From a virus: a DNA stretch of 21,128 nt. Both the position numbers and the translations under genes were made by a program. The notes under the pieces were generated by a model, which saw only the letters and a list, made by a program, of their open reading frames with translations, ran no database searches and was not told the origin of the DNA. Shown here in pieces: positions 2,586-17,817 of the stretch (position 1 is its first letter; every line of letters starts with the position of its first letter). The stretch spans positions 1 through 21,128 of IMG/VR virus record IMGVR_UViG_3300025151_000372. One strand, given 5' to 3'.

Positions 2586-5501
2586 ATGTTAGGACTTTTA
2601 GCAGGAGCAGCAAAAACGGTTGGTGGTAGCATTGTAAAGAGTGCTGCTAAAGATAGAGCAAAAAGTTTTATCACTGGTAAGAAAAAGAAAGTAAAACCTG
2701 GTGCGATTAAAAAGAAAGGTGGTGATGATTCATCTCCAGGAAAAGGTGGTGCTCTTGCAGTAAGACCATCTTCTGCTCTTGTTCCTGCAGTATCATCAGT
2801 TACTCCAATTTCAGGTGCAGAAACTGCATCAACAAAATCTGGTGGGGGTGACACATTAACTCTAATAAAAGATAAAGTATTTGAGATTGATAAGGTTCTG
2901 AAAGGAACTCTAGCTCAACAAAAAGCAGCTTCTAAGGGTGATAGGAGAGGTGAGGAGAAGGCAAAACGAAAGAAGCAAGAAAACTTATTAGAGAAGATGC
3001 CTAAGATGCCAGGCAGCGGACTAGTTAAGAAACTTGCAGCACCTGCTAAAGGAGTATTTGGTGGTATATTTGATTTTCTTAAAAATATTTTATTAGGTCG
3101 TCTCCTTGTTATTCTAATTGAGAGTAGACCTAATCTACCTGGTGGTAGTATTTTAATGTTCCTTGCTGGAATGGCAGAGAAAATTATTGATTTAATTATT
3201 GGAACCATCGATGCCTTAGGTTCTTTCTTGGCATGGGGTCAAGAGAAACTTGATGGCGCTAAAGAGTGGTTAAAGGAGAATAGAGGTCCAGAGGCAGAGG
3301 AAAGATTTGAAGCTCTGCTTGGAACATTAACAGATCTATTCAATGCTGCATTTATTGTTGGTTCAATTTTTGCTGTTGGTGGTGGTTTTCCTGGTGGTAG
3401 AAAACCTGGAAAACCTGGAAAACCTGGAAAACCTGGAAAACCAACTAAACCCGTTAGTCCAAAACAGAATCTTATTGACAAGGGACGTAAGATAGGTCCA
3501 ACTGGACGTACTCCTTTAGCAGCAAAAGTTCAATTAAAGCACGGACATAACGCTGCTAATGCATGGCAAGTCAAGTATGATGATGCAATATCGAAAGGAA
3601 AGACTCCCGCCCAGGCAAGTAGAACTGCTAATGCATACGTTAAGAAACTCATTAAGAAGGGTGCTTTAAAATCAATGCCTCAGAGAGGTAATCTTGCTGG
3701 TGCAATGAAAGGGAGTAAGATTACCAAAGGTGGAATAAAGAAAGTACCAAAGAGACTTGCGACTAAAGTTCTTGGTAAAACTGGTATTAAGGCAATGAAG
3801 GGTCTTGCTAAAGGATTTGGTAAGATACCTATTGTTGGTCCTTTAATTGTTGCTGTATCCTCCTTGCTTGCAGGAGAACCAATCGGTCAAGCAGTGTTTA
3901 AAGGTATCGGTGCTGCACTTGGCGGTGCATTAGGTTCATTCATTCCAATTCCAGTCTTGGGAACCATACTTGGTGAGAGTATAGGTGTCCTTGTAGGAGA
4001 TATGATGTACTCCCTCATCATGGGTGGTGGTATTGAGGAAGCAGGTCAGAAATTCATGGACGCCCTTAAGACCGTCATGGATGTTGGTGGTCTTATTCTC
4101 AATTTCTTCAAGGAAGGATTTGGTAGATTCTTTAGTAACTTCCCAACAGTTGATGTTCCAGGATTTGCGCAGTCTCCTTTGGGAGCACTATTTCCATTCT
4201 TAGCGACTCCGGGTGCGAAGGGACTTTTGGGTGAGAAACAAGTAAAGGAGATGCCAAACCTCAGCATACTTTTCAACCCAGTTGCTATGGTTACTGAGTT
4301 GATACCTCATGCTGCAGCATCATTCTTACCTGATATTTTTGGGGCAGGTGGAACTGCCTTTGGTTCTGATACCACCGCCGAGGAGATTGATGATCCGAGT
4401 GGTTCAGATTCTGGTTCTAATAATGAAACACGATATTCAGGCAACACTAGTGGAACAGAAAATCTGATGCCTGGTTCAATTCCTTCAGTTCCTCAAACTG
4501 GAGTTGCTCCACCAATTAGTGGCAAAGGAAAAGCAATATATCTTCACTGGACTGCTGGATCTTTTACTAATACTGATGGTCCTTATCACACTGTGTTTAC
4601 GGGTGATGGAACACCGCATTACAAAGCACCTTATACAAAACAAGTAAATCATACTGAAAGTCGAAATAAGAATTCTGTTGGACTATCTCTTGCTGCTAAT
4701 CCAGAGAAAGGATGGTTCCCAACTGAAGCACAATTATCCGCAATGTCAAAAGAGGCAGCACGTATTGCCACTGGATGGGGATGGTCTGCCAGTGATATTA
4801 ACCTCAACAAGGTCATGACTCACGGTGAAGCAGGATCTAACTTGGATGGAATGGTTGCGACCACGAATTATGGAAGATTTGGAAGAGATTGGGCTGCTGG
4901 TAGTAACCAACCTGAGAAGCAGAATAAAGCAAGAGGAAGCATAGCTGATTTTGAACGTTATGATTTGGATGTTATAAGATGGAGTGGTATCAATAAACCT
5001 GATACAAAATTTGGAGCAGGTGGAGATGAAATGCGTGAGAGAATCAGCAAGGATATGCAAGTAGCAAAATCGAGTGAATCTTCATCTGAACCTTCTACAT
5101 ATAATCCTATGGATCCTGCCAATATGACTTCCGAGCAGAGATCTGCAATGGGATACTCTAAAGGTGGTCTTGTTAGAAAGAAAGGAAATTACATGTTGGC
5201 AGAACTAGGTCCTGAATTTGTTTTGGATGCTGATTCGACTCAACCAATTGAAAAAATGTTACCTGGTTTCCTTGACGCAATCAATCAGGCAAGAGGAGAT
5301 GAAGCTGTTAGTGTTCTGATGGAGTATGCATCTTATGAAAGACCATCAGAAACTGAAGTGGTAATGGCAGGACAGTCTGGGGCATCTTCTAGTGGTGGAG
5401 ATATGGGAGGAGAAGATAGTAGTCTCGCACTTCCACCATCTCTACCATCCACTCCACCGCCAAGAGATTCTTGGAAAGAGATTCGTTATAAATTTGGGTA
5501 A
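2586..5501 (+). CDS. Large tail protein with C-terminal N-acetylmuramoyl-L-alanine amidase domain
   Basis: A 971-residue protein whose ATG lies one base after the upstream stop; GGTGG at 2575-2579 may serve as ribosome site. The N-terminus is Lys-rich, and residues 89-179 repeat the block seen in the upstream gene (GDRRGEEKAKRKK, KNILLGRLLVILIE). A GKP tandem repeat lies near 273-287. Residues about 410-490 are Gly/Ala/Ile-rich and hydrophobic, like a tape-measure or membrane-active segment. An amidase_2/PGRP-like domain starts near 650: His654 in YLHWTAGS, NHTESRNKNSVGLSL, PTEAQLSAM, His746 in MTHGEAG, and an ERYDLDV ending where Asp793 could be the third zinc ligand. Near 855-895 is a GG-LVRKKGNYMLAELGPEFVLDADS segment, the 'GE-GPE-V' type found in phage tail proteins. 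It probably cleaves the MurNAc-L-Ala bond during entry. Placement in the virion is inferred from context. Confidence 0.8.
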   Translation: MLGLLAGAAKTVGGSIVKSAAKDRAKSFITGKKKKVKPGAIKKKGGDDSSPGKGGALAVRPSSALVPAVSSVTPISGAETASTKSGGGDTLTLIKDKVFEIDKVLKGTLAQQKAASKGDRRGEEKAKRKKQENLLEKMPKMPGSGLVKKLAAPAKGVFGGIFDFLKNILLGRLLVILIESRPNLPGGSILMFLAGMAEKIIDLIIGTIDALGSFLAWGQEKLDGAKEWLKENRGPEAEERFEALLGTLTDLFNAAFIVGSIFAVGGGFPGGRKPGKPGKPGKPGKPTKPVSPKQNLIDKGRKIGPTGRTPLAAKVQLKHGHNAANAWQVKYDDAISKGKTPAQASRTANAYVKKLIKKGALKSMPQRGNLAGAMKGSKITKGGIKKVPKRLATKVLGKTGIKAMKGLAKGFGKIPIVGPLIVAVSSLLAGEPIGQAVFKGIGAALGGALGSFIPIPVLGTILGESIGVLVGDMMYSLIMGGGIEEAGQKFMDALKTVMDVGGLILNFFKEGFGRFFSNFPTVDVPGFAQSPLGALFPFLATPGAKGLLGEKQVKEMPNLSILFNPVAMVTELIPHAAASFLPDIFGAGGTAFGSDTTAEEIDDPSGSDSGSNNETRYSGNTSGTENLMPGSIPSVPQTGVAPPISGKGKAIYLHWTAGSFTNTDGPYHTVFTGDGTPHYKAPYTKQVNHTESRNKNSVGLSLAANPEKGWFPTEAQLSAMSKEAARIATGWGWSASDINLNKVMTHGEAGSNLDGMVATTNYGRFGRDWAAGSNQPEKQNKARGSIADFERYDLDVIRWSGINKPDTKFGAGGDEMRERISKDMQVAKSSESSSEPSTYNPMDPANMTSEQRSAMGYSKGGLVRKKGNYMLAELGPEFVLDADSTQPIEKMLPGFLDAINQARGDEAVSVLMEYASYERPSETEVVMAGQSGASSSGGDMGGEDSSLALPPSLPSTPPPRDSWKEIRYKFG
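3402..3442 (+). repeat. 9-bp tandem repeat coding for Gly-Lys-Pro
   Basis: Four full copies of AAACCTGGA plus a partial fifth lie in frame inside the amidase-domain tail gene and encode PGKPGKPGKPGKP. The result is a short, basic, extended collagen-like linker between a hydrophobic segment and a Lys-rich region. Copy number could vary between relatives by slippage. Confidence 0.9.
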
Positions 5502-5523
5502 ATAGATGTAGAGGAAAATACAA

Positions 5524-6852
5524 ATGTCAAAGACAACAGAAGCGAATCAAGGACAAAAGGCAGGATCAGCAAAAATTAAAACAGTTGCTGTAACTAGTAA
5601 AACTGACGAGAATCGTAGCGTAGAAATCTCCGGTGGTTTTATTGAGTTTAGATACTATGAAAGTATCTTGCAAGATGGTATAATGGGAACCTACATGTTT
5701 CAAGATGCTGGAGATGCTGTTGATGGCAAATCTGTGGTTGAAGGTTTACCTTTGACTGGCAGTGAAGTCCTTCAGTTTGCTGCTGAAGATAACTTTGAGA
5801 ATGAATTGAAAGCAACATTTATTGTAAGAAAACCATCACCGCTTTCTGATGACACAAGAAAAACAGTTGTTCATTTACCATTGGTGTCAGAAGCATTTGC
5901 AATTAACGATCAGAAAAATGTAAGGAAACTTTTTCCAAAGCAAAAAATTTCAGATCATGTCAAAACTTTAATGTCAGAGTTTTTAGAAACTGAAAAAACT
6001 TTAGACATAGAAGATACTAGCAATGATCTTAAAGAGTATGGTTTGAATAGAAAACCATATTTCATGCTGAATACTTTTGCCAAGAAAGCACAACCGTCTG
6101 GTGGTGAAGGTCAGACTGCAGGATACTTTTTCTTTGAAACCTCAGAGAAGATGATCTTTAAGTCAATTGACAGTTTCTTTGATGAGGAAAAGAATCCAAG
6201 AAAGAAATCAATTATCTATAACGAAACCAACAACAGAGAAGGACTTCCTGCAGGGTATGATTACAAGGCACTATCATATGATAAGGAGGGAGGAGATGTA
6301 GTTGAAATGGCAAAGATGGGTGCTTTTACCACAGCATCTATAACATTTGATCCAATTAACTTTAATTTCAAGAGAACTATCATATCTGCTGCCAAAGATA
6401 TTTTCACAGATGTTGATGATGCAATCGAACCTTTATCTACAGCAGCAAAAGAACTTACATCATTCAATCCAAATCTTCAGAAAGAGTTCACAAGAACTAC
6501 AATGAGTTTTATTGACACAGGAACTTTCTCTGAGAATGCTGAGGGATCAAAAGAGAAGAATTTTGATTTTGCCAATGTATATAATCAGTCGATTATGAGA
6601 TATAATCAAATGTTCGCTGCTAAAGTGAACATTATGATTGAGGCAGATTTTTCTTTACATGCTGGTGATATGATATTTTTTGATGCTCCGTCACCAAGAA
6701 AAGACACAAAGAACGATGAAGTTGACAAGCAGACTGGTGGTCTATATATTATAGCAAGTCTATGTCATTACATAACGCCGGATAGAACTCTAACAAAACT
6801 CTGTTTAATTAGAGATTCTCATGGTAGACAAGGAAACCACGCAAAAAGGTAA
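5524..6852 (+). CDS. gp27: gp27-like baseplate hub protein
   Basis: A 442-residue protein. The ATG is preceded by GAGGA at 5511-5515, a good ribosome site at normal spacing. The N-terminal part (SVEISGGFIEFRYYESI, then GIMGTYMFQDAGD, LPLTGSEVLQF and later FIVRKPSPLS) has the look of the T4 gp27 hub family, whose trimer links the tail tube to the gp5 spike. A later segment (YGLNRKPYFMLNTFAKKA, then GYFFFETSEKMIFKSID) and the C-terminal LHAGDMIFFDAP with YIIASLCHYITPDRTLTKL fit the tandem tube-like barrels of hub proteins. T4 gp27 is 391 residues, so the length is comparable. It sits just before CP12 and the gp5-like gene, the expected partner. The family call rests on pattern and context; a general tail-tube/hub fold protein is the main alternative. 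Confidence 0.7.
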   Translation: MSKTTEANQGQKAGSAKIKTVAVTSKTDENRSVEISGGFIEFRYYESILQDGIMGTYMFQDAGDAVDGKSVVEGLPLTGSEVLQFAAEDNFENELKATFIVRKPSPLSDDTRKTVVHLPLVSEAFAINDQKNVRKLFPKQKISDHVKTLMSEFLETEKTLDIEDTSNDLKEYGLNRKPYFMLNTFAKKAQPSGGEGQTAGYFFFETSEKMIFKSIDSFFDEEKNPRKKSIIYNETNNREGLPAGYDYKALSYDKEGGDVVEMAKMGAFTTASITFDPINFNFKRTIISAAKDIFTDVDDAIEPLSTAAKELTSFNPNLQKEFTRTTMSFIDTGTFSENAEGSKEKNFDFANVYNQSIMRYNQMFAAKVNIMIEADFSLHAGDMIFFDAPSPRKDTKNDEVDKQTGGLYIIASLCHYITPDRTLTKLCLIRDSHGRQGNHAKR

Positions 6853-6855
6853 AAC

Positions 6856-7083
6856 ATGGAAAGCATCGAAAAGCATATCGAGAAGGATAAGGAAATCCTT
6901 CAAGATCCTACAACATCGCCTCAGCAACGTCGTCACATTGAAGGTGAACTTCACGAACTAGAGGTATACGTAGAAAATCATAAAGAAGAAATCGCAGCAG
7001 GAGATCATCATGATCCAACTGCACTGGAACTCTATTGCGAGATGGAACCAGATGCAGACGAATGTAGAATGTACGACGACTGA
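6856..7083 (+). CDS. cp12: CP12-like Calvin-cycle regulator (phage auxiliary metabolic gene)
   Basis: A 75-residue acidic protein ending in the CP12 signature: LELYC-x8-CRMYDD, with Cys61, Cys70, Arg71, Tyr73 and terminal Asp74-Asp75. In cyanobacteria the C-terminal half of CP12 forms a disulfide loop and inserts its tail into GAPDH, after which phosphoribulokinase joins, switching off the Calvin cycle; cyanophage CP12 genes are known. The N-terminal half is charged and helical (HIEKDKEIL, QQRRHIEGELHELEVYVENHKEEI) and has no cysteine, so the N-terminal Cys pair of many host CP12 proteins is absent. The gene sits between the two hub genes with gaps of 3 and 2 bases and has an AAGG ribosome site at 6846-6849. 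It is therefore expected to be co-transcribed with late structural genes. Four of its five Ile codons are ATC and two of three Arg codons are CGT, unlike the neighbours. Confidence 0.8.
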   Translation: MESIEKHIEKDKEILQDPTTSPQQRRHIEGELHELEVYVENHKEEIAAGDHHDPTALELYCEMEPDADECRMYDD

Positions 7084-7085
7084 AT

Positions 7086-9092
7086 ATGTCACAGGACGGA
7101 GGAGCACTATTTGAATCAGGTTTATTAGGATCCAGTTTTTTCTGGTGGGTCGGTCAGATTGCTGACGATTCTGTCTGGAGAGAAAATGAAATACCTGCAC
7201 CTCATGCCCAGGAAGGGGAGAACATAGGTTGGGGTAGGAGGTATAAGGTTCGTATCATGGGTCTCCATGATCAGGGTGAAACTGTAATACCTTCTAAAGA
7301 CTTGCCCTGGGCTAATGTGATGATGCCCGTAACATCGGGAGGAAATCTCACTAGGGCAGGACAATCTTCTGCCTTACGTCAAGGCAACATGGTGTTTGGT
7401 TTCTTTATGGACGGTTCGGCAATGTCCGTTCCTGTTATCATGGGTGTCATTGGAAACAATGCACAGAATCCAATGGCCGCCAAGATTGGTGATAATCGAG
7501 TCACCAATAAACAACCAGGATCCCTGGCAGTTACTGGATATGCTGATGGTCAAGTTCCTAAAGATCCTAAAACTGGAGAGAAACCACTTCCTCCTGATGG
7601 AGATTTAAAATCAGAGCATCCAAATGCAGACCCTGCTCTTGCACCTCAGCGTCCGAACGCAAAAGTTAATAAGTACGGACTTAGACCAGATCTTCCACTG
7701 AACGATGAGCAGTTCAAAGATCAACAGGCAGCAAGAATAAGAGCAGATCAATTAGGACTTAAGGGGGTTGAGAGAGGCGAGTATTTGATGAAAGCCGTTG
7801 CGGACGGCATGAAAAGAAGAGAGGCACAAAATACTTCTAACACTGCTCCATTAAAATCAAGACCAACTAGAGAAAGTCCTGACGGACAGCATATCTCTGC
7901 TGGTGATGTGAAAGAAGATGTTTTGGCAGATGAAAAAACTGTAATGCCAATCCCAGATAAACCAGTTCAATCTGCGATTAAAGCAATACAAACAATCCTT
8001 GATAATATTACTCAGAAAATGGATAAGTATCTGAATGCTATCCAGAGTTATGTTGATGCAGTATCAAGCACCGTTGGAAACCTGGAGGATATGATTTGTA
8101 AGGGTGCGATGCAGGCAGCAAAATATATGAAAGTCATCTTTGATAAGATAATGGAATTTGTTTTGAAACAACTTAATGTTGTTATGTCTAAAGTTATTGC
8201 AGCACTTCCCTCTAACTTAAGAAATCTTTTTGGAGATTTAAAAGAAAAGTTAAATGAAATGATTCTGGGATTGTATAATCAAATGATCGGCGGAATTGGG
8301 GAACAACTTTGCCAAACATTGTTAGATACTTTGCAACCACAAAAAAGAGAAGAAGAGGCGAGACAAATTGCTTCTTCTCAATCTGGTGGATCTTCTGGTG
8401 GATCTGATACTGGTCTTGGTGGTGCTGTTGGTGGTGTTGGTGGAAATGGAAAATTTAAGAGCAGACCAAAAGTTCCCATGTGTTATGCGGAGAGTGTCGC
8501 ATCTACGGTGATATCAAAAAATAAAGGTAAGATAGAAGAAGCAAACAAAAATGTTATTAGAAGTTTGAATGGATTTATAGATGGTATTCAGGGAGAAATT
8601 AATGGCGTAACCAGCGCACTATCTGCAGGACAAGAAGCGATGTCAGCAGGATTAGGAGATTCTATTGGAAATTTTGCTGCCGATGCTGCTGTTGTCACTA
8701 ATGAGATGGATGGAATGTTAAACATGATGCCAGATATTGCGAGTGGTCTTGGTGCAGCACTGGACTTCACTAATATTATTATGAATGTTTTTGCTGGTGA
8801 ACTTCCTCCTAAAGAAGCAATTAACGACTACTACCAACTTGCGGTAGGTGGATCTGGTACAAGTGCATTTGAAATACCAAGTTTGGATGGTATTGCTGAG
8901 TCCGTTCTTCAGAGTGGTGAAGCAAGAGTAGAGAGGATAACAGATCCTCCACCGGTTCCAGATTATGCATCTCCACCAAAAGATGAGCCTGACGTTGATC
9001 TTGATCGCGAAGCGATTGTTACTGATATTGATACTACGGACTTTCAACAGATGACACAAGAAGAACGAGATCAAGCATTACAGATCTATTAA
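7086..9092 (+). CDS. gp5: gp5-like baseplate hub protein with OB domain, no lysozyme
   Basis: A 668-residue protein starting two bases after the CP12 stop. Residues about 18-125 match the N-terminal OB domain of T4 gp5: FFWWVGQIADDS, RRYKVRIMGLHDQGE, IPSKDLPWANVMMPVTSG, then GNMVFGFFMDGSAMSVPVIM; T4 gp5 has WFVGVVEDR, RVRVVGLH, IPTEKLPWMSVIQPITS and VYGHFLDK at the same places. Unlike T4 gp5 there is no T4-lysozyme domain after the OB fold and no repeated V-x-G-x-x-x-x-x beta-helix at the end. Instead there is a charged linker, a long helical region (about 295-425, QSAIKAIQTILDNITQKMDK onward), a Gly/Ser-rich hinge (about 430-457), a second helical region to about 590, and an acidic Pro-rich tail. 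Role: central hub trimer bound to the gp27-like protein. The OB-domain assignment is strong; the function of the rest is unknown. Confidence 0.85.
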   Translation: MSQDGGALFESGLLGSSFFWWVGQIADDSVWRENEIPAPHAQEGENIGWGRRYKVRIMGLHDQGETVIPSKDLPWANVMMPVTSGGNLTRAGQSSALRQGNMVFGFFMDGSAMSVPVIMGVIGNNAQNPMAAKIGDNRVTNKQPGSLAVTGYADGQVPKDPKTGEKPLPPDGDLKSEHPNADPALAPQRPNAKVNKYGLRPDLPLNDEQFKDQQAARIRADQLGLKGVERGEYLMKAVADGMKRREAQNTSNTAPLKSRPTRESPDGQHISAGDVKEDVLADEKTVMPIPDKPVQSAIKAIQTILDNITQKMDKYLNAIQSYVDAVSSTVGNLEDMICKGAMQAAKYMKVIFDKIMEFVLKQLNVVMSKVIAALPSNLRNLFGDLKEKLNEMILGLYNQMIGGIGEQLCQTLLDTLQPQKREEEARQIASSQSGGSSGGSDTGLGGAVGGVGGNGKFKSRPKVPMCYAESVASTVISKNKGKIEEANKNVIRSLNGFIDGIQGEINGVTSALSAGQEAMSAGLGDSIGNFAADAAVVTNEMDGMLNMMPDIASGLGAALDFTNIIMNVFAGELPPKEAINDYYQLAVGGSGTSAFEIPSLDGIAESVLQSGEARVERITDPPPVPDYASPPKDEPDVDLDREAIVTDIDTTDFQQMTQEERDQALQIY

Positions 9093-9099
9093 AAACTAC

Positions 9100-9107
9100 A
9101 ATAAATA
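9100..9107 (+). promoter_or_regulatory. Candidate T4-type late promoter before the giant gene
   Basis: AATAAATA matches the T4 late -10 box TATAAATA at seven of eight positions and lies in the 47-base gap between the gp5-like gene and the VrlC-like gene, 33 bases before its ATG. Late promoters of T4-like phages need only this box and are read by gp55-loaded polymerase. The position is right; the motif is short, so chance occurrence is possible. Confidence 0.5.
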
Positions 9108-9139
9108 TTCACACATGACATCGAAAGAAGCAGTATAAG

Positions 9140-12100
9140 ATGGCAGGGTCAAAGTCTGATCGTAAGAAGAATGCTAAGTTAGATATTTTTGCATCTAATA
9201 AAGATGCAAATGATTCCGTTCGTGTAGGATATATTGATCCAAAGCGTGGATATATTGATGGATTGTCGGTTTATCAGGCAAATAAACATGCTGAGAAGAA
9301 TCCAGGAACTCGATTTATATTCGTAACCCGAGATAAAATAAGATATATTAATATAAATCAGGTTAACAAATTAAAAAATTCGCACACTATACCAAAAAGT
9401 GTTGCCAAGGGTCTTGTTGATGAGAATGGAGAATTTGATCCATGTAATACGGTAAGAGGATTCAACACGAATCCAGATGGTGGAGAACCTGAAATTAAAC
9501 CAGATGACAATCTGCCATTTACTTCATCAGGAGAGTATGATGCAAAAGATAATTATAAAAGATATTTTGGGAGCAAGTCTGGTACTGGTGACGGCAAAGG
9601 TAAGCAGTGTAGAACTAGATTACTGATCCAAGGTGGTGGTGGAATCGGTGCTGTTGCAACTCCCATCATTGGTAAAGATGGATCAATACTTCATGCCAGA
9701 ATTATATCTGGTGGATTTGGATATAAATTTCCACCACAAGTTAGGATTGTAGATGACTGTAAGAGGGGTTCTGGAGCCAGAGCAATATCTCGTTTGGGTT
9801 TCCAAGGATACACCGAAGAGAATTATGATGATGCAGATGATTTTGAAGATTATGACTTCACTCTCAAGAGTGCAGGCGGAGATACTATACTTGATACTAG
9901 TGATATTGCTTGGGGGCAATTATATTCTCTCGGAAATCAAACTGTAATCGGAGAATGGAATCCTGCCAATGTTATTAGTCTTACCAATGACGACAGTTTT
10001 TCTACAAAATTACAAGAGTATCTAAGATTCTTAAAAGGTTACGATCCAAATAAACCCTGGTGGACGACCAGAGATGAGGTTGCCGTAAGAGTTGTTGGAG
10101 ATGGAACTGCTAAGAAAGCAAATAAATTAGGTGGCATCTTATATCCAGTAGAACACTGGGCTTGGGGTGGAACTAAAGAGAGAGATGATCTTTTTGTTGA
10201 TGTTGAGTTTGAAGTATATGGTCAAGGCACTTTTAGAAATAGAAATTTATTTTTCTTCTTTAAAGCAGAAGATGGATCCCATCAATTTAGAGTAAGAGGT
10301 GTCACTAATGAAGCGAGGAGTGGAAAGACAAGAAAACAGGTAATTAAAGTATTAGCAAACACCACTTATAAGGTAACTTCAAACGCTAGAAAGAGAATTG
10401 AAGGTAGCGAAAAAATGGTCCTGGAACAAGGGCTGTTGAATCAAATCGGTAGGAAAGAAAAGGAGATAGGAGGAGACAAAGCAATCGGCAAAACTTCTAA
10501 GGTTATTTTTGCTGATGTTGTTGGATCTCTAAATGACAATGATGATATTCAAGTCAGAGCTAACATCGGAAGATTTAAAGCAGGAGATAGAACGGCAGTT
10601 TCCGTAGATCCTAGTAAAAAGAAAGCTGAAAAGTTCAAAGATCAGAAGAATAGATTTAAGAGAGGAACATTTGAGCTTACATATAGAATCAATCGAAGAA
10701 ATAATATAACTTTTACTAAAGAGGTATTCCCAAGTTTCATGAATAATTATGCAGTTGCTCCGCAATTTGCATCCGATAAACTTGGAACAGATAAAGCAGA
10801 CAAACCTTATACGCTTCTCTATAGAGAATTCTTCCCACACAAAGGAGTTTACACGTTCAGAGGAGCTGCTGACAATCAGGGTGAAGTCTTCTTGGATAAC
10901 CAAAGTATCATGGATATCACTGATACTTTTAAAAATAATTCAAAAGAGAAAAAAGTAACAGTTGAAAAAGGACTTCATGATATTAGAATAGATTTATTAA
11001 ATTTTCCACAGAAAAAGATAGTTGAAAAAACTTTCACTTCAGATGGTCGTGCAGATAGGTTTAAGAAAGTAAATGTAAAGTTTAACGTTGTAGGTAGTGG
11101 AAGTGGTAGACATAGAAAAATTAAATGCATCTTTACTAATAAGGCAGATCCCACTGAAACCTTCACCATTGAAAATAATGGTGACAATAAAGAGGTTCGA
11201 GAGGTACAGAGACCAATAATTGCTAATTCAGAATATGATGTTAAGTTCATAGCAACTGCTGAAAAAAGAGAAGATGCATACAAAGAAACAACCATTCCAA
11301 TTATATTAGCAACACCAGGAACAAAAGGTAGAGGAAAGAAGGCTCGTATTGGTAAAGTTGAACGCAAAAAAATTAAATATCTAGATGAAAAAGGAGATGA
11401 TCCAAACGCACAGTTAAGTATTGACTCGACATCACCAGGACTAACTGCTAGATTTAGTGATGATGGCACCAACCTTATTACAAAAGGCAATGGCAATGTT
11501 ACCTTGAAATTTAAATGGGATGATAATCCTAAGAGTGCTGGTAAAGCAGTTGGTGAATTAACAGTTGCTGATAAAACTTTCAAACAAAAGGGTGAGAAGG
11601 GAGAGGAAAGGCAAACAGTTTATGTTGGAAGCATTAGCCCCTGCGACCCCATACCTGAACGTTCAAAGATCTTTCCGATTACCTATGATAACCTCAATCC
11701 CAATAATGATCCCATAAATGTTAGCCGTAATAGAAAGAAAATTTTCTTAAAAGACGGTGGTGATAGAGATACAAATGCCACTATTACTATTGAAAAAGTT
11801 GAGGGAGGTGTTGCCACATTTACTCCTGACGGAAGGGGTATTGATGTAAAAGGAGATTGTGATGTAACAATATCTTTTAACTGGGATGACAACCCTAATA
11901 CCAGTGGAGTTGCTCTTGATTACTTTAAAATTAACAATAAATTTTTCAGACGAAGAGGTGAATCAGATACTATAGTCCGAACGATTAATCTTAAAGGAAC
12001 TGGAAAACGCCCCAGAAGTTATGCTTCCATTATAGAACAGGGTTGTGTTGAGAACGGCACCAAGAATAAAGAAACAAGAGCAAGTTCTAGCAGAGTTTTT

Positions 12101-15100
12101 GGAGACTATCTTGGATCTGCGAATGATAATGATGACATGCAAGTCTTCGTCAAGAAGGGTGGAATTTTCACATCATCTAATAGAAGGAGAATTGACAGGC
12201 ATGGTGCGGAAGGTGGTGAAAGAGGTAGAGGTACTTTTGATTTGTCATTCAATTATGACATGAGAAAGGGAGGATTTACAAAAGATCTGTGGCAAGAACT
12301 TAAGGATCAAAATATTATTGATGCTAAGACGGGACAGGCACTTGAAAGAAGTGATCTTGAAGTAGCACAAGTATTCAATACAAAAGAATTTATTGATAAA
12401 GCAAATAGACCTCTTTACAGAATGAGACCAGGTGTTGGCCCTTATGGCGATTTCTTCAATAGAAACGGTATTACTCCATTCAATCCTCTGGAAGTGGATC
12501 CAGATATTAAGGATGTAAAACCAACAGTACCCGCACAACCAGAACCAAAGTATGAGAAACCAAAAGTAAAGTTTGTTAAGAGATCGGGAGAAACGTTTCT
12601 TAAAGTTATTGGAACTGGTAAAGCAAAGATTGGATTTAAATTAAAAACGGATGATAATTTTAAAACCTCTGGTGTATTTGCGAAAGAGGTAAAAATTCAA
12701 GCAGATGGTCCAGATGTTATCTTAAAAAGAACTGAGGAGAAAAAATTCAATGCTTCTGGAAAGAGTAGATTCCAGGGACGCGATGCTTACACTAGAAAAC
12801 TAGTAGAAGAAGAAACTATCAAAGGAGAAGGAACTTTTACAGCAGGTAAGGAATATAAAATTAAATCCATTGGAGGATCTCCAACTTCTGGATTCAAACC
12901 AGTAGATGAAACTGTTGTTTTTGATGATGACATTGGTAATGGTCTTGATGACAATGGAACACTCTCTATTAGATACGTTAGACCTATTAATCCACCAAAA
13001 CCAAAGGCACCTAAAGATCCTAAGAATGGTAAAAATCAATCATCCAAAAAATCTTTAGATAACGTTGAAGGATCAGTAAGTGATTATGCAGGAATTCATA
13101 AAATAATTTGGAAAGATATTTATTTTCCAGCATCGGGAACTTATACTGTTGACGTTCAGGTTGACGATAATGTACGTTTGGAAATTTTTAATAGAAGATT
13201 CAAAGCACAAGTATTAGATGTAAAAGGATTTAGAGGTCCAGGAAAATCTAGGGGAATGCAATCCTTCGCTATAGAAGTTCAGAAGGGAACTTATACGCTT
13301 CAAGCATTCTTGCAGCAGATTCCTGGAAAATCCATTGTTGATGGAAACCCTATGGGTCTTGCTGTTAACATCAGAACTGCATATGTTACAGTTAAGGAAG
13401 AGATCACACTTAATCAGTCTTGGAATGAAAATCCATTTGGTGTTGCATTAACAATTCATGCTCCACCACCACCAATTCCACAAGAACCACCTCTGAAACA
13501 GGATGGTCCATGTCCACCAAATCCAGTTTGGACTACCAGGCATAAGGCAAAGGATGCTCAGTGGCATCCATGCAATCATATCTATTCAAATGGTACAAAG
13601 TCTTGGAGTTCATTCATGAACCGCTATGCAATGTCCCCAGTGTTACCCATTGGAACAAAAGGTAGTGGATATAGTGGAGACTCTTGGACTAATTTGTGGG
13701 AGGCAGAGATTCCATTCACTGGATTTTATAATTTCAAGGGAACTGTTGACAATAAAGCATTTGTTACTATCTTACAAGATCCAGGGAATAGTGAAGTTAC
13801 TGAACCAAAAGTACAAGAAATTAAACAACTGGATCATTTTAATACTGAGAAAAAAGATCTTACAAGTAACAAAATTTACTTGGAAAAGGGTCAGGCTCTA
13901 ATTGGAATCACGGTTACAAATGGAGAGGTTTTCAAAACAAAATTAGTCACCAAGAAAGTTTTTAGCACTGCTGATTGGGTAGCCAAATCAGTTAGGAAGG
14001 ATAAACCCCAAAGAGTTCCTGTTGAGTTTGAAGTATACGGTCACGGCAGCAAAAAAAATATGGGATTGAAGTTTGTCTTCAAGGAGATGGGTGGAAATCA
14101 TACTTTTACGATTGATAATGTTGAAAAAAGTAGAGCAACTGAGAAAATAGAGAAGAGGGTAAAACGCAATACTGATTATAAAGTTACTGCGATTGCTACT
14201 GGATCTCATACTTTAAAAAATAAACCATCAGCTGCAAAAGAAAGAACCTACAAAATTGAAGTGGCAGATCGTGGAAGTTTAGGTAGGGGTGATAAAGCTG
14301 CAGTTAAATCTGTTTCAGATAAGGTAATTAAATTTACGGATTCGACCAGTCAAATGGATACTGATGCAGAATTCAGAATTAAATCGCCATCACCTGGATT
14401 AACTGCTAAGTTTAGGGGAAGCAATGATAACGACCTTGAATTGGTTGTTAAGGGTGATGGTGATCTTTCTCTTGAATTGTATTGGAATGATGATCCAAGG
14501 AGTAATGGAGAGTCAGTTGGTAACATTAAAGTCGCTGGTGAGACATGGAAACAAACAGCATTTAAGGATAAAGAAGACTCCATAACTAAAACCATTAAGG
14601 TCGGTGATTCAAATACTAGTTCAGGATCGGCAAGAAAGGATATCACCAAGACTTTCCCTATCAACTATAACGGATTGAATCCCAATAATAATCCCATCAA
14701 CGTTAGTGATAAAAGAAACAAAATTTTCTTAAAAGACGGTGGTGATAGAGATACAAACGCAGAGATTATTATTGAAAACGTTGACGGAGGCACTGCCAAG
14801 TTTACTCCAGATGGAAGATCTATTGAGGCAAGAGGAAATTGTTCTATAAGAATAGCTCTAGAATGGGATGACAACCCTAATACCAGTGGAGTTGCTTTAG
14901 AGAGTTTTGAGATTGGAGGTAAAGTATGGATACAAAAAAGGGAAAAGGGTGAAAAAGTTCAAACGATTACTCTTGATGCAACTCAAAAAGTCCCCGCAAC
15001 CCGCGAAGAGGTGAAACTTGTTCCAGAACAAGGTACATCAAAAGTCTTCGGTAGAGGTAAGAAGGGAACTGAAAGTCAGAAACCCGGTCAGATTATTTTT

Positions 15101-17167
15101 GCTGATATTATTGGATCTGCAAATGACAATGATGATATGCAGATTAGATGTAATGTGGGCGTTTTTACCCCGTCTAATAAGAGAAAAAAGGTAAAGGGCA
15201 CATCAGGTCAAGGAACTCAGAGAAGAAACACTTGGGATTTAACTTATCGTTATGATGATGATACTTTTTCTCCTGAAAATATCACTGAGGTTGATGGTGC
15301 AACTTATGATATTAAAGATAAAGAGACTTCTGAGATTATCACTAGTCAGATAGGTCGGAACAAGAGAAGCGTAGCACCATTAATTAAAAACCCAACCCTT
15401 ACTACGTATAAGAGAGGAACTCTGGGACCATTCTTATCACCATTCTTTGCTAAAGGAAGAAAAGAAGGTGGAGATGCTCTTCAAGGTAGAACTTGGGAGA
15501 TGGTTTGGAAAGATGTTGAATTCCCAGTAGATGGTGAGTACACTTTTAAAGCAGAAGCGGATGATATATTAGATATCGAAGTTAGTACTGAAAGTGTTAG
15601 AGTTAATGTTCCCAGAAAACCTGCAGTTCGTGAATATAAGAAAAAACTTTTGGCACTCATTGGAGATCCAAATACTGCAGAGCGTGGAATTTTCTCACAA
15701 GAGACGCAATGTTATGTTCCAGGTAAAGGTGTAAAGGAAATTGATAGATTGCTTAATGAAGCAGAGATTATTCTTGAAAATAAGAAAACAAAGGCTAAAG
15801 ATTTGAAAGATCAGGCATCTCAACTTTCAGAGGCATCAAAGTTTTTCTCCTCAGATCTTTTGGCGAGAAAAGCAGAGCAGTTGATGTCTCAGTCCATACG
15901 CTTACATAAGCGTCTCAAAGGTAAGATTGACAAACCCTTTAAAAAGGTAGAGGATCGTATCGGAAAAGCAAAAGAAATTGAGAGACAACTCAAGGCATTT
16001 GCAGATCAATACTCTCTCAGTCAAAGTGAGTTGGAAGATCTTGGTGAAGATCGCGCAGAGTTAGAATTTGTATCTATAACTGAAAGAAGACTAGTAAAAC
16101 TTGGAGATCAGGTAAATATTAGTCCTGAAAATATAAAACAAAGACTTAAATCTCTGAAAGATATTCAGGGTGACTCTAGGAAAAAGTTTATGAGAAAAAT
16201 TGATAGACTTGCCGAGAGACTTGCCAGAAGAGATACTGATGGTAAGATTAAAGGTGAGGCAACAATGAGAGATAAAAAAGTTGTCAATTATCAAAGGATA
16301 GGTCGAGCTAGGACTTTCCAGGGAGTAAAAACATTTGTAGCAACAATTAAGGCAGGAAAACGTAATGTTAAACTCACCTTACAAAATGCAAAAATACCTG
16401 GAACCACATTTAAACAAAATCCTGTGGTTGCTGCGTGTAAAATTACTTGTCAAGTTCCTGTAGAAGTTGAAGATCAAAGATCATGGTTGATTAATCCAGT
16501 TGGTGTTAGTGCTGTTCTCATATCTCCTCCTTGTAATAGAGTCATTGGTGGTATAGGTACGGTTCGTGAAATTGATATCATTGAACCAGGAAATTCACAT
16601 CCACCAGATCCACCAGACACTCCAGGTGTACCCAGTACACTTATCATCGATGACATTATTCCAGAAAAACCTGGAATTGGATACACTCCTGGAGATACTG
16701 CTACCATTATTGGCACTGGTGTTAGTTTTCCAATTACTGTAGGACCATTTGGAAAGGTTACTACTGTTGGAGTTACGACTGATATTCCTATCACAACGTA
16801 TCCAAAAATTGATATTTCCACCACTACCGGAACTGGATTTGTACCTCGTATTACAACTAAACTGATTATAGATACTCCTACTGCCGATCCAGAGGACGTT
16901 ATTCAGGTTACAGACCTTGCTGGTCTCAAGCAGAATGGATACATCGAAGGTCGTCCATATTATGGAGAGGTCTTCTTTAAGGATGGAGTTCCATTCGCTG
17001 GAAGATATGAAACTGCTGGAAGACTTATTCAAGTCTATGCTACTCTTCAAGAGAGCATCGATGGTGAAGTTACTACCAGACCTTCTGCAATTCAGAGATC
17101 TGGTACTGATGTCAACAGTAATAATCCTAGACTTAACATTCCAGGAACTCCAGATAATCTAGCTTAA
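9140..17167 (+). CDS. vrlC: Giant VrlC-like virion structural protein
   Basis: A 2675-residue protein without visible signal peptide, of the size and position expected for the VrlC-type structural proteins of T4-like cyanophages. Visible layout: a Gly-rich module near 164-205 (GGGGIGAV, ISGGFGYKFPP); VEFEVYG-type modules starting near 355, 646 and 1628; (V/S)GS-NDNDD modules near 462, 992 and 1992; SPGLTA-F modules near 765 and 1751; a LNPNN/KDGGDRDTNA/DDNPNTSGVAL module near 845-950 and again 1839-1944; four PA14-like segments (YTFRGAADN 571, YTVDVQVDD 1335, YNFKGTVDN 1530, YTFKAEADD 2134). A charged helical region lies at about 2190-2375, followed by another Gly-rich GIGYTPGD module near 2505 and a C-terminal domain with GYIEGRPYYGEVFF. 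It is probably a peripheral baseplate or fibre component; the sandwich modules suggest glycan contact, which is inference. The vrlC name is from recall of cyanophage annotation. Confidence 0.7.
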   Translation: MAGSKSDRKKNAKLDIFASNKDANDSVRVGYIDPKRGYIDGLSVYQANKHAEKNPGTRFIFVTRDKIRYININQVNKLKNSHTIPKSVAKGLVDENGEFDPCNTVRGFNTNPDGGEPEIKPDDNLPFTSSGEYDAKDNYKRYFGSKSGTGDGKGKQCRTRLLIQGGGGIGAVATPIIGKDGSILHARIISGGFGYKFPPQVRIVDDCKRGSGARAISRLGFQGYTEENYDDADDFEDYDFTLKSAGGDTILDTSDIAWGQLYSLGNQTVIGEWNPANVISLTNDDSFSTKLQEYLRFLKGYDPNKPWWTTRDEVAVRVVGDGTAKKANKLGGILYPVEHWAWGGTKERDDLFVDVEFEVYGQGTFRNRNLFFFFKAEDGSHQFRVRGVTNEARSGKTRKQVIKVLANTTYKVTSNARKRIEGSEKMVLEQGLLNQIGRKEKEIGGDKAIGKTSKVIFADVVGSLNDNDDIQVRANIGRFKAGDRTAVSVDPSKKKAEKFKDQKNRFKRGTFELTYRINRRNNITFTKEVFPSFMNNYAVAPQFASDKLGTDKADKPYTLLYREFFPHKGVYTFRGAADNQGEVFLDNQSIMDITDTFKNNSKEKKVTVEKGLHDIRIDLLNFPQKKIVEKTFTSDGRADRFKKVNVKFNVVGSGSGRHRKIKCIFTNKADPTETFTIENNGDNKEVREVQRPIIANSEYDVKFIATAEKREDAYKETTIPIILATPGTKGRGKKARIGKVERKKIKYLDEKGDDPNAQLSIDSTSPGLTARFSDDGTNLITKGNGNVTLKFKWDDNPKSAGKAVGELTVADKTFKQKGEKGEERQTVYVGSISPCDPIPERSKIFPITYDNLNPNNDPINVSRNRKKIFLKDGGDRDTNATITIEKVEGGVATFTPDGRGIDVKGDCDVTISFNWDDNPNTSGVALDYFKINNKFFRRRGESDTIVRTINLKGTGKRPRSYASIIEQGCVENGTKNKETRASSSRVFGDYLGSANDNDDMQVFVKKGGIFTSSNRRRIDRHGAEGGERGRGTFDLSFNYDMRKGGFTKDLWQELKDQNIIDAKTGQALERSDLEVAQVFNTKEFIDKANRPLYRMRPGVGPYGDFFNRNGITPFNPLEVDPDIKDVKPTVPAQPEPKYEKPKVKFVKRSGETFLKVIGTGKAKIGFKLKTDDNFKTSGVFAKEVKIQADGPDVILKRTEEKKFNASGKSRFQGRDAYTRKLVEEETIKGEGTFTAGKEYKIKSIGGSPTSGFKPVDETVVFDDDIGNGLDDNGTLSIRYVRPINPPKPKAPKDPKNGKNQSSKKSLDNVEGSVSDYAGIHKIIWKDIYFPASGTYTVDVQVDDNVRLEIFNRRFKAQVLDVKGFRGPGKSRGMQSFAIEVQKGTYTLQAFLQQIPGKSIVDGNPMGLAVNIRTAYVTVKEEITLNQSWNENPFGVALTIHAPPPPIPQEPPLKQDGPCPPNPVWTTRHKAKDAQWHPCNHIYSNGTKSWSSFMNRYAMSPVLPIGTKGSGYSGDSWTNLWEAEIPFTGFYNFKGTVDNKAFVTILQDPGNSEVTEPKVQEIKQLDHFNTEKKDLTSNKIYLEKGQALIGITVTNGEVFKTKLVTKKVFSTADWVAKSVRKDKPQRVPVEFEVYGHGSKKNMGLKFVFKEMGGNHTFTIDNVEKSRATEKIEKRVKRNTDYKVTAIATGSHTLKNKPSAAKERTYKIEVADRGSLGRGDKAAVKSVSDKVIKFTDSTSQMDTDAEFRIKSPSPGLTAKFRGSNDNDLELVVKGDGDLSLELYWNDDPRSNGESVGNIKVAGETWKQTAFKDKEDSITKTIKVGDSNTSSGSARKDITKTFPINYNGLNPNNNPINVSDKRNKIFLKDGGDRDTNAEIIIENVDGGTAKFTPDGRSIEARGNCSIRIALEWDDNPNTSGVALESFEIGGKVWIQKREKGEKVQTITLDATQKVPATREEVKLVPEQGTSKVFGRGKKGTESQKPGQIIFADIIGSANDNDDMQIRCNVGVFTPSNKRKKVKGTSGQGTQRRNTWDLTYRYDDDTFSPENITEVDGATYDIKDKETSEIITSQIGRNKRSVAPLIKNPTLTTYKRGTLGPFLSPFFAKGRKEGGDALQGRTWEMVWKDVEFPVDGEYTFKAEADDILDIEVSTESVRVNVPRKPAVREYKKKLLALIGDPNTAERGIFSQETQCYVPGKGVKEIDRLLNEAEIILENKKTKAKDLKDQASQLSEASKFFSSDLLARKAEQLMSQSIRLHKRLKGKIDKPFKKVEDRIGKAKEIERQLKAFADQYSLSQSELEDLGEDRAELEFVSITERRLVKLGDQVNISPENIKQRLKSLKDIQGDSRKKFMRKIDRLAERLARRDTDGKIKGEATMRDKKVVNYQRIGRARTFQGVKTFVATIKAGKRNVKLTLQNAKIPGTTFKQNPVVAACKITCQVPVEVEDQRSWLINPVGVSAVLISPPCNRVIGGIGTVREIDIIEPGNSHPPDPPDTPGVPSTLIIDDIIPEKPGIGYTPGDTATIIGTGVSFPITVGPFGKVTTVGVTTDIPITTYPKIDISTTTGTGFVPRITTKLIIDTPTADPEDVIQVTDLAGLKQNGYIEGRPYYGEVFFKDGVPFAGRYETAGRLIQVYATLQESIDGEVTTRPSAIQRSGTDVNSNNPRLNIPGTPDNLA
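11738..11775 (+). repeat. 38-bp exact direct repeat, copy 1 (inside vrlC-like gene)
   Basis: Identical to 14720-14757, exactly 2982 bp (994 codons) downstream. It encodes KIFLKDGGDRDTN. Together with the 33-bp repeat at the same offset it marks a recent or strongly conserved internal duplication. Confidence 0.95.
11882..11914 (+). repeat. 33-bp exact direct repeat, copy 1 (inside vrlC-like gene)
   Basis: Identical to 14864-14896, at the same 2982-bp offset as the 38-bp repeat. It encodes WDDNPNTSGVA. Confidence 0.95.
14720..14757 (+). repeat. 38-bp exact direct repeat, copy 2 (inside vrlC-like gene)
   Basis: Second copy of 11738-11775. The flanking coding sequence is clearly related but diverged at the nucleotide level, so the identical core stands out. 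Confidence 0.95.
14864..14896 (+). repeat. 33-bp exact direct repeat, copy 2 (inside vrlC-like gene)
   Basis: Second copy of 11882-11914, in the same frame and order relative to the 38-bp repeat. Confidence 0.95.
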
Positions 17168-17190: not shown

Positions 17191-17817
17191 ATGTCAACTC
17201 AATCGACCACAGATAATAGTAGATTAGGTGCCGGTTCTGAAACCGCAAAACGTAATTATACTGTTATTGAATATGGAAACGACCATGGAGGTATTTCTTT
17301 TGGTAAGGTCCATAAGAAAGGTGATGTGACATCCTCTGTGATGTTACAAGGCAAAGATGGTCGTCATCGTTTCTACATGGATCATGACGGACAAAGACCG
17401 GGATATACAACACTGACTAGTCCTGGAACTTTTGCTGTCAAGTGTGGGATGGATCTTGACACCGAGCAAGATGGAATCTTTCTCAACGCAGAGAATGGTG
17501 ACATTGACATTATTGCCAGTAATGGTAAAATAAGAATGGTTGCTGATGATATTGAATTTGTTGCTGTTGGATCTTTAGAACAAGGAAACATTAAATTAAA
17601 CGCTAGTGAATCTATTTCTTTTGACTCCAAAAAGATAGTATCTACTGCAAAAAATCTTCTTAGATTATCATCACCAAACACACTTGAAATGGTTGCAAAC
17701 GGTCAGATGAAAATGGTCGCTGCAGTTATGAGATCATGTACTGATGGTGCTGCATTAAAACCAGACAAATACGGAAATGCATATCATCATCTGTTAAACT
17801 TCACCCTACCTGGATAA
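17191..17817 (+). CDS. Beta-helix protein, candidate tail spike tip
   Basis: A 208-residue protein. After a polar N-terminus and a segment HGGISFGKVHKKGDVTSSVM, the middle (about 85-175) is a run of short alternating strands: GIFLNAENGDIDIIASNGKI, RMVADDIEFVAVGS, GNIKLNASESISFDSKKIVS, LLRLSSPNTLEMVANGQMKM. This is the look of a trimeric intertwined beta-helix such as the C-terminal spike of T4 gp5 or of gpV-type spikes. The gp5-like protein upstream lacks such a region, so this separate protein may supply the membrane-puncturing needle; that is inference. No strong ribosome site is visible before the ATG, and GATAA directly precedes it. A short fibre or other beta-helical baseplate protein is the main alternative. 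The C-terminal end YHHLLNFTLPG is not repeat-like and may cap the helix. Confidence 0.65.
   Translation: MSTQSTTDNSRLGAGSETAKRNYTVIEYGNDHGGISFGKVHKKGDVTSSVMLQGKDGRHRFYMDHDGQRPGYTTLTSPGTFAVKCGMDLDTEQDGIFLNAENGDIDIIASNGKIRMVADDIEFVAVGSLEQGNIKLNASESISFDSKKIVSTAKNLLRLSSPNTLEMVANGQMKMVAAVMRSCTDGAALKPDKYGNAYHHLLNFTLPG

Follow-up and report, generated by a model that had tools for sequence, protein, structure and literature searches.

The cp12 gene in the viral DNA analysed here (a stretch of 21,128 nt, hereafter the window) is probably best explained as an ordinary cyanophage cp12 in its usual slot between two baseplate hub genes, with a sigma70-type site of its own, expression in both the middle and the late phase, and exchange of its alleles in place. 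New in this picture are the conserved promoter-like site within the gp27-like gene and the exchange of cp12 as a single gene while its slot stays fixed. CP12 is one of the main arguments that cyanophages stop carbon fixation while photosynthesis is kept running, and whether it serves DNA synthesis or virion assembly depends on when it is produced.

The cp12 locus and its place in cyanophage genomes

The window is a fragment of a T4-like cyanomyovirus, and the nearest isolate found is Bellamy. As the first-pass annotation had stated, cp12 lies between gp27-like and gp5-like genes, and the open reading frame coordinates bear out the gaps of 3 nt (6853-6855) and 2 nt (7084-7085) on either side (Table 1). 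The gp5-like product matches Gp5_OB in Pfam and PHROG families described as baseplate hub and tail lysozyme. For the gp27-like protein the Pfam search returned no family, and its PHROG matches, with family 350 the best, are all described as tail protein; we use the label gp27 because of these matches, the synteny, and the fact that its relative in S-SM2 is annotated as T4-GC15. T4-GC15, the cluster to which that relative belongs, has been found in S-SM1 virions (PMC3037559). Downstream of gp5, positions 9140-17167 hold a single repetitive ORF of 2675 aa, preceded at about 40 nt by a late-type motif; its product is probably tail-associated. Upstream of gp27, the product of positions 2586-5501 has weak similarity to Amidase_2 (E 8e-5, which does not reach the cutoff) and may be a hydrolase of the cell wall carried on the tail.

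Table 1 Positions of the genes and sequence motifs around cp12 in the window
Feature	Position	Strand	Remarks
Late-promoter-like motifs upstream of gp27	TATAAAT 5487-5493, TAAATAG 5499-5505	+	identity 0.98-0.99, 19 relatives
gp27-like baseplate hub/tail gene	5524..6852	+	442 aa; PHROG 350 'tail protein', E 2e-78
Sigma70-type promoter-like site TTGACA-N17-TATATT in the 3' end of the gp27 CDS	6722..6750	+	11/12 consensus; invariant in 19/19 relatives
Invariant 16-nt block TAGCAAGTCTATGTCA, just after the -10 hexamer	6752..6767	+	longest invariant run within 3253-9202, 19 aligned relatives
Possible ribosome-binding stretch AAAAAGG before cp12	6843..6849	+	sequence inspection
cp12	6856..7083	+	75 aa; Calvin-cycle inhibitor CP12 without N-terminal Cys pair; Pfam CP12 above cutoff
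gp5-like baseplate hub / tail lysozyme gene	7086..9092	+	668 aa; without late motif directly upstream
Late-promoter-like motif AATAAATA ahead of the following long gene (9140)	9100..9107	+	ATAAATA at 9101: identity 0.97, 17 relatives

The product of cp12 is a true member of the CP12 family, in the phage form that has the C-terminal cysteine pair. It matches PHROG 627 with an E value of 4e-41 and Pfam CP12 (PF02672) with 47.5 bits (E 3e-12), above the curated cutoff of 22.7. Its 21 C-terminal residues align with the CP12 tails in solved structures (PDB chains), namely with the redox and GAPDH-binding tail of the cyanobacterial and plant proteins (3ZDF, 6GFO, 6KEZ). The cysteine pair C-x8-C (C61 and C70 in the window) is kept in 275 of 275 loci, and the acidic YDD-type tail is present. 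In other parts the phage form differs from the cyanobacterial and plant proteins. Classical CP12 has an N-terminal cysteine pair and an AWD_VEE core (PMC3906501), whereas both are absent from window CP12, which has only two cysteines, both C-terminal, and carries HIEGELHELEVY in place of the core. Through its tail, CP12 would be expected to bind host GAPDH, so that the Calvin cycle is held back. PHROG 627 is itself described as of unknown function despite its CP12 match, and many GenBank records name the gene a hypothetical protein.

A divergent CP12-like protein of 88-89 aa occupies the same slot in six other loci (L099:3306-3575, L100:3291-3560, L443:3899-4165, L445, L446 and L468). The C-terminal tail (CDNHPDSLECRVYDD) is the only part recognisable as CP12, and in the N-terminal half no relation to the common phage CP12 is apparent; either an independent acquisition in the gp27-gp5 slot or replacement of the N-terminal half would account for it. 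A scan for host CP12 returned only two phage-like contigs in metagenome-assembled genomes (L103 and L104, binned as Euryarchaeota and Rhodopirellula), both with a cyanophage-type cp12 and probably phage contamination of the bins.

Relatives of window CP12 occur in 362 phage records (tblastn), named Synechococcus, Prochlorococcus or Cyanophage apart from one 'Marine virus', with up to 85% sequence identity to isolates. The order gp27-cp12-gp5 with gaps of -1 to 20 nt is found in S-SCSM2R, S-CAM4, S-SCSM1, Bellamy, S-SM2 and SynMITS9220M01. The closest known systems are the T4-like cyanophage CP12 genes (T4-GC 337; PHROG 627; SSM2_015 of S-SM2, gene 15 of Bellamy), which share the family, the length of 75 aa, the slot from the GC15/gp27-like gene to gp5, and short gaps like those of the window (9 and -1 in S-SM2, 2 and -1 in Bellamy). 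The hub of the Syn9 and S-RIM2 type, cp12-cpeT(-tRNA-Val)-gp5, also has cp12 directly 3' of the gp27-like gene but differs in that cpeT and other genes separate it from gp5, as in Syn9, S-RIM2, P-SSM3 and S-SZBM1, and in that most such loci have a late-type motif of their own about 30 nt before cp12. Homologous CP12 genes are outside the hub in P-HM2, S-TIM5 and S-SKS1; those of P-HM2 and S-TIM5 differ from the window gene in sitting near talC, among metabolic genes. The gp27-gp5 junction is empty in P-HM2, S-H9-2, S-RIM44, S-CAM7 and S-N03.

The 275 non-duplicate loci comprise 148 with a compact hub arrangement, 55 with a hub insert, 18 with a partial hub, 36 with cp12 elsewhere and 18 unresolved, and because they were mostly sampled by similarity to four CP12 queries, these counts are no unbiased frequencies. 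Among these sampled loci the gp27-cp12-gp5 slot is the commonest position of cp12 and recurs far beyond chance. The first-pass annotation had presented the position as unusual for a metabolic gene, a view that these loci do not sustain: a location 'near gp5' was already reported in 2010 (PMC3037559), the arrangement is also present in the S-SM2 deposition, and as synteny it is ordinary. A CP12 tree onto which the locations were mapped implies that the gene has moved many times, but an alignment of 75 columns has little resolving power, and no ancestral state is drawn from it.

A sigma70-type site inside gp27

The site TTGACA-N17-TATATT, with its -35 hexamer at 6722-6727 and its -10 hexamer at 6745-6750, is the best promoter-like site within positions 5000-9500 and ends 105 nt before the ATG of cp12. 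All twelve of its bases are invariant in 19 relatives, most of which have a gp27 only about 50-74% identical to that of the window, and among 5,921 positions scored in the form 6-17-6 no other reaches an identity of at least 0.99 in these relatives (mean 0.66). Codon conservation along gp27 peaks at the site, at 0.96-0.98 compared to a mean of 0.65-0.67 (permutation p 0.003). Sites of this kind are also enriched before cp12 over two controls. At least 11 of the 12 consensus bases are found in the gp27 3' ends of 14 of 144 representatives that precede cp12, compared to 4 of 682 internal gp27 segments (p 2e-8) and 0 of 45 representatives with an empty slot (p 0.024); for at least 10 of 12 bases the comparison with empty slots is 31/144 to 1/45 (p 0.001). 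The hexamer pair, with a spacing in the range of 16-18, appears to be conserved before cp12 beyond what protein coding would call for.

Alternatively, the block may owe its conservation to the protein, to codon usage or to RNA structure and only resemble a promoter. It encodes a conserved GGLYII.SLCH peptide, and the invariant 16-nt run that follows the -10 hexamer also encodes conserved peptide sequence, with codon conservation nearby in some phages without cp12 as well. Two gp27 clades without cp12 have raised codon conservation near the -10, with CTATATAT-like codons kept there. The -10 half of the signal is therefore not specific to cp12, whereas TTGACA is, and the idea that codon conservation over the whole block proves a cp12 promoter is weakened accordingly; what remains specific to cp12 after this control is TTGACA and the full 6-17-6 pair. 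Against this alternative stand three observations. Among the invariant hexamers of its frame, TTGACA alone has two outer codons that both change amino acid, it contains the only all-GAC column among 13 all-Asp columns, and, as noted, no empty-slot representative has an 11/12 site. We consider a mere look-alike rather unlikely, though it is the strongest of the alternatives weighed here, and we favour the reading of the site as a putative promoter.

Conservation of the site over all compact loci was considered and rejected: most compact loci outside the clade of the window lack an 11/12 site, and the signal is strong only in that clade and in scattered lineages. The sites differ in their -10 hexamer across lineages, which speaks for repeated origin. 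In other lineages sigma70-type sites stand before cp12 together with the late TAAATA: in Syn9, S-RIM2 and P-HM2 a 10/12 site and a late motif both precede the gene. One locus with cp12 outside the hub (L176) has a perfect 12/12 site, TTGACA-17-TATAAT, together with a late-type TAAATA, both before cp12. The Syn9 transcriptome paper reportedly places host-like promoters before middle genes.

Timing of cp12 expression

As the late-type motif we took a TAAATA core, which mostly sits 25-41 nt ahead of the start codon. In a small calibration set chosen by hand, it precedes 13 of 20 structural genes compared to 3 of 19 genes of other kinds. In the window it is found before gp27 (TAAATA 25 nt from the ATG), before the gene at 9140 and before that at 17191. 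A late motif directly before cp12 was looked for and none was found; a TAAATA or ATAAAT core about 25-42 nt before its start is absent, and gp5 has no late motif directly upstream either. Across the loci, 89% of the insert type and 28% of the compact type have a late motif upstream of cp12, compared to 2% of internal gp27 segments, and TAAATA lies upstream of gp5 in 95% of insert-type loci compared to 1% of compact ones. Since the late motif is nearly absent before gp5 in compact loci, gp5 probably relies there on messages that run through cp12. The start of gp5 is 2 bases from the cp12 stop, so the translation of the two is likely to be coupled. The late-type motifs at the head of gp27 in turn make late read-through into cp12 likely.

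On another reading of these features, cp12 would lack its own promoter in this lineage, and its expression would be confined to the late phase, in a gp27-cp12-gp5 message. The gaps of just 3 and 2 nt and the conservation of late-type motifs at the head of gp27, with none directly before cp12 or gp5 of the window, fit such a message. The invariant sigma70-type site before cp12, with its enrichment over empty-slot controls, argues against it, as does the reported timing of cp12 in other phages. In Syn9, where cp12 is in the same hub slot, a review table lists early co-expression with talC, psbA, zwf, gnd and nrdA/nrdB (PMC6359870), and the cp12 of P-HM2, beside talC, was measured as a middle gene (PMC5082946). 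Because of this published timing, early for Syn9 and middle for P-HM2, late-only expression is unlikely as a rule. For the window we hold it to be improbable, and middle-type transcription of cp12 from a site of its own appears better supported. The first-pass annotation had tied Calvin-cycle inhibition to late structural transcription; the late read-through in that proposal is likely to hold, while an exclusively late expression is disfavoured by the sigma70-type site and by the timing listed for Syn9 and measured in P-HM2.

We therefore favour a dual timing, middle and late, which we infer from the motifs and from the published expression. An RNA polymerase with a host-type sigma factor would transcribe cp12 from the site embedded in gp27 in the middle phase, which is when the phage would need pentoses and NADPH to make nucleotides. 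Read-through from the late-type promoter ahead of gp27 would then give a second round of cp12 transcription in the late phase, and the late message through cp12 would also serve gp5. If the embedded conserved promoter is real, it would reconcile the place of cp12 in a late operon with the reported early and middle expression, and it makes the timing directly testable.

The position of cp12 between two hub genes had also raised the prospect that CP12 travels with the virion, packaged in or on it with the hub and acting at once on entry. That position is the one point in its favour. The virion proteome of the hub-slot phage S-SZBM1 lists the gp27-like protein (locus 65, three peptides) but not CP12 (locus 64), a weak argument since gp5 (locus 61) was missed too. 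CP12 has also been listed apart from the virion structural proteins (PMC3037559), it sits in non-structural surroundings in P-HM2, S-TIM5 and S-SKS1, and the hub works without cp12 in phages with an empty slot. Carriage in the virion is thus unsupported, and we consider it very improbable.

Codon choice and allele exchange

Isoleucine codons in cp12 of the window are ATC in 4 of 5 cases compared to 15 of 69 in the two neighbours, a post hoc comparison on five codons with a binomial p of 0.006-0.009. The first-pass annotation had noted this difference correctly, but the later insertion that was read from it is not borne out. Across 72 loci, ATC accounts for 155 of 375 isoleucine codons in cp12, 343 of 2184 in gp27 and 933 of 4116 in gp5, and GC3 of cp12 exceeds that of the neighbours in 68 of the 72. 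Since relatives have the same bias, it is no mark of recent insertion here; it is an old property of the gene. A recent insertion of cp12 into the hub operon, for which the ATC-rich isoleucine codons and the elevated GC3 would be the signs, also conflicts with a slot that is filled across many genera; it is the allele that is recent, whereas the insertion is not. We give this scenario hardly any weight. The gene is under the strongest purifying selection of the trio, with a dN/dS of 0.077 compared to 0.16 and 0.25 for its two neighbours.

Alleles of cp12 are swapped in place between phages by recombination, as a single gene. In the clade of the window, the pairwise distances of gp27 and gp5 are closely correlated (Spearman 0.86) whereas those of cp12 are not correlated with either (0.02 with gp27, 0.15 with gp5); as a control, every 75-codon segment of gp5 gives a correlation of 0.79-0.89 with gp27. 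The decoupling is not found in every clade, with a value of 0.75 in a clade of 11 members. Sliding identity drops or rises at the borders of cp12. Between L024 and L427 it is 0.90-1.00 through the 3' part of gp27 and at least 0.88 in gp5 but 0.52-0.88 within cp12, and the window and L440 have the reverse pattern in most of cp12. The cp12 sequences (228 nt) of three cultured S-RIM2 isolates differ from each other by 9, 16 and 25 nt, with the changes lying in two tracts, compared to 1-3 nt in gp27 and 0-1 nt in the compared part of gp5. Along 50 kb of two such isolates cp12 is one of the two highest peaks of divergence (25 of the 198 differences), and two isolates that are unlike at other peaks have nearly the same cp12 (2 differences). 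Assembly chimeras were considered as the cause of the incongruence and rejected: both flanks agree with each other, and the cultured isolates behave likewise. Recombination is common in these phages (PMC6722890, PMC5112629); the main texts of these two papers do not mention cp12, and in the literature consulted on T4-like cyanophage CP12 we found no account of an embedded promoter-like site or of allele replacement.

The slot tolerates exchange because cp12 is a small self-contained ORF between conserved genes, so that recombination between related phages can replace it alone. More tentatively, and with somewhat less than even confidence, we propose that the gp27-gp5 junction is a stable docking slot for single-gene exchange, in which a hidden host-type promoter frees the timing of cp12 from the late operon. 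If true, this would give CP12 two windows of expression, and the frequent turnover of alleles would hint at variants tuned to the GAPDH and PRK of different hosts. The exchange of single-gene alleles within a virion operon in itself suggests selection on CP12 variants. The near-identical S-RIM2 isolates have other short peaks of divergence as well, one in a run of small hypothetical genes (L560 46589-46817) and one inside the long gene at 6629-9133 (L560 7373-7525).
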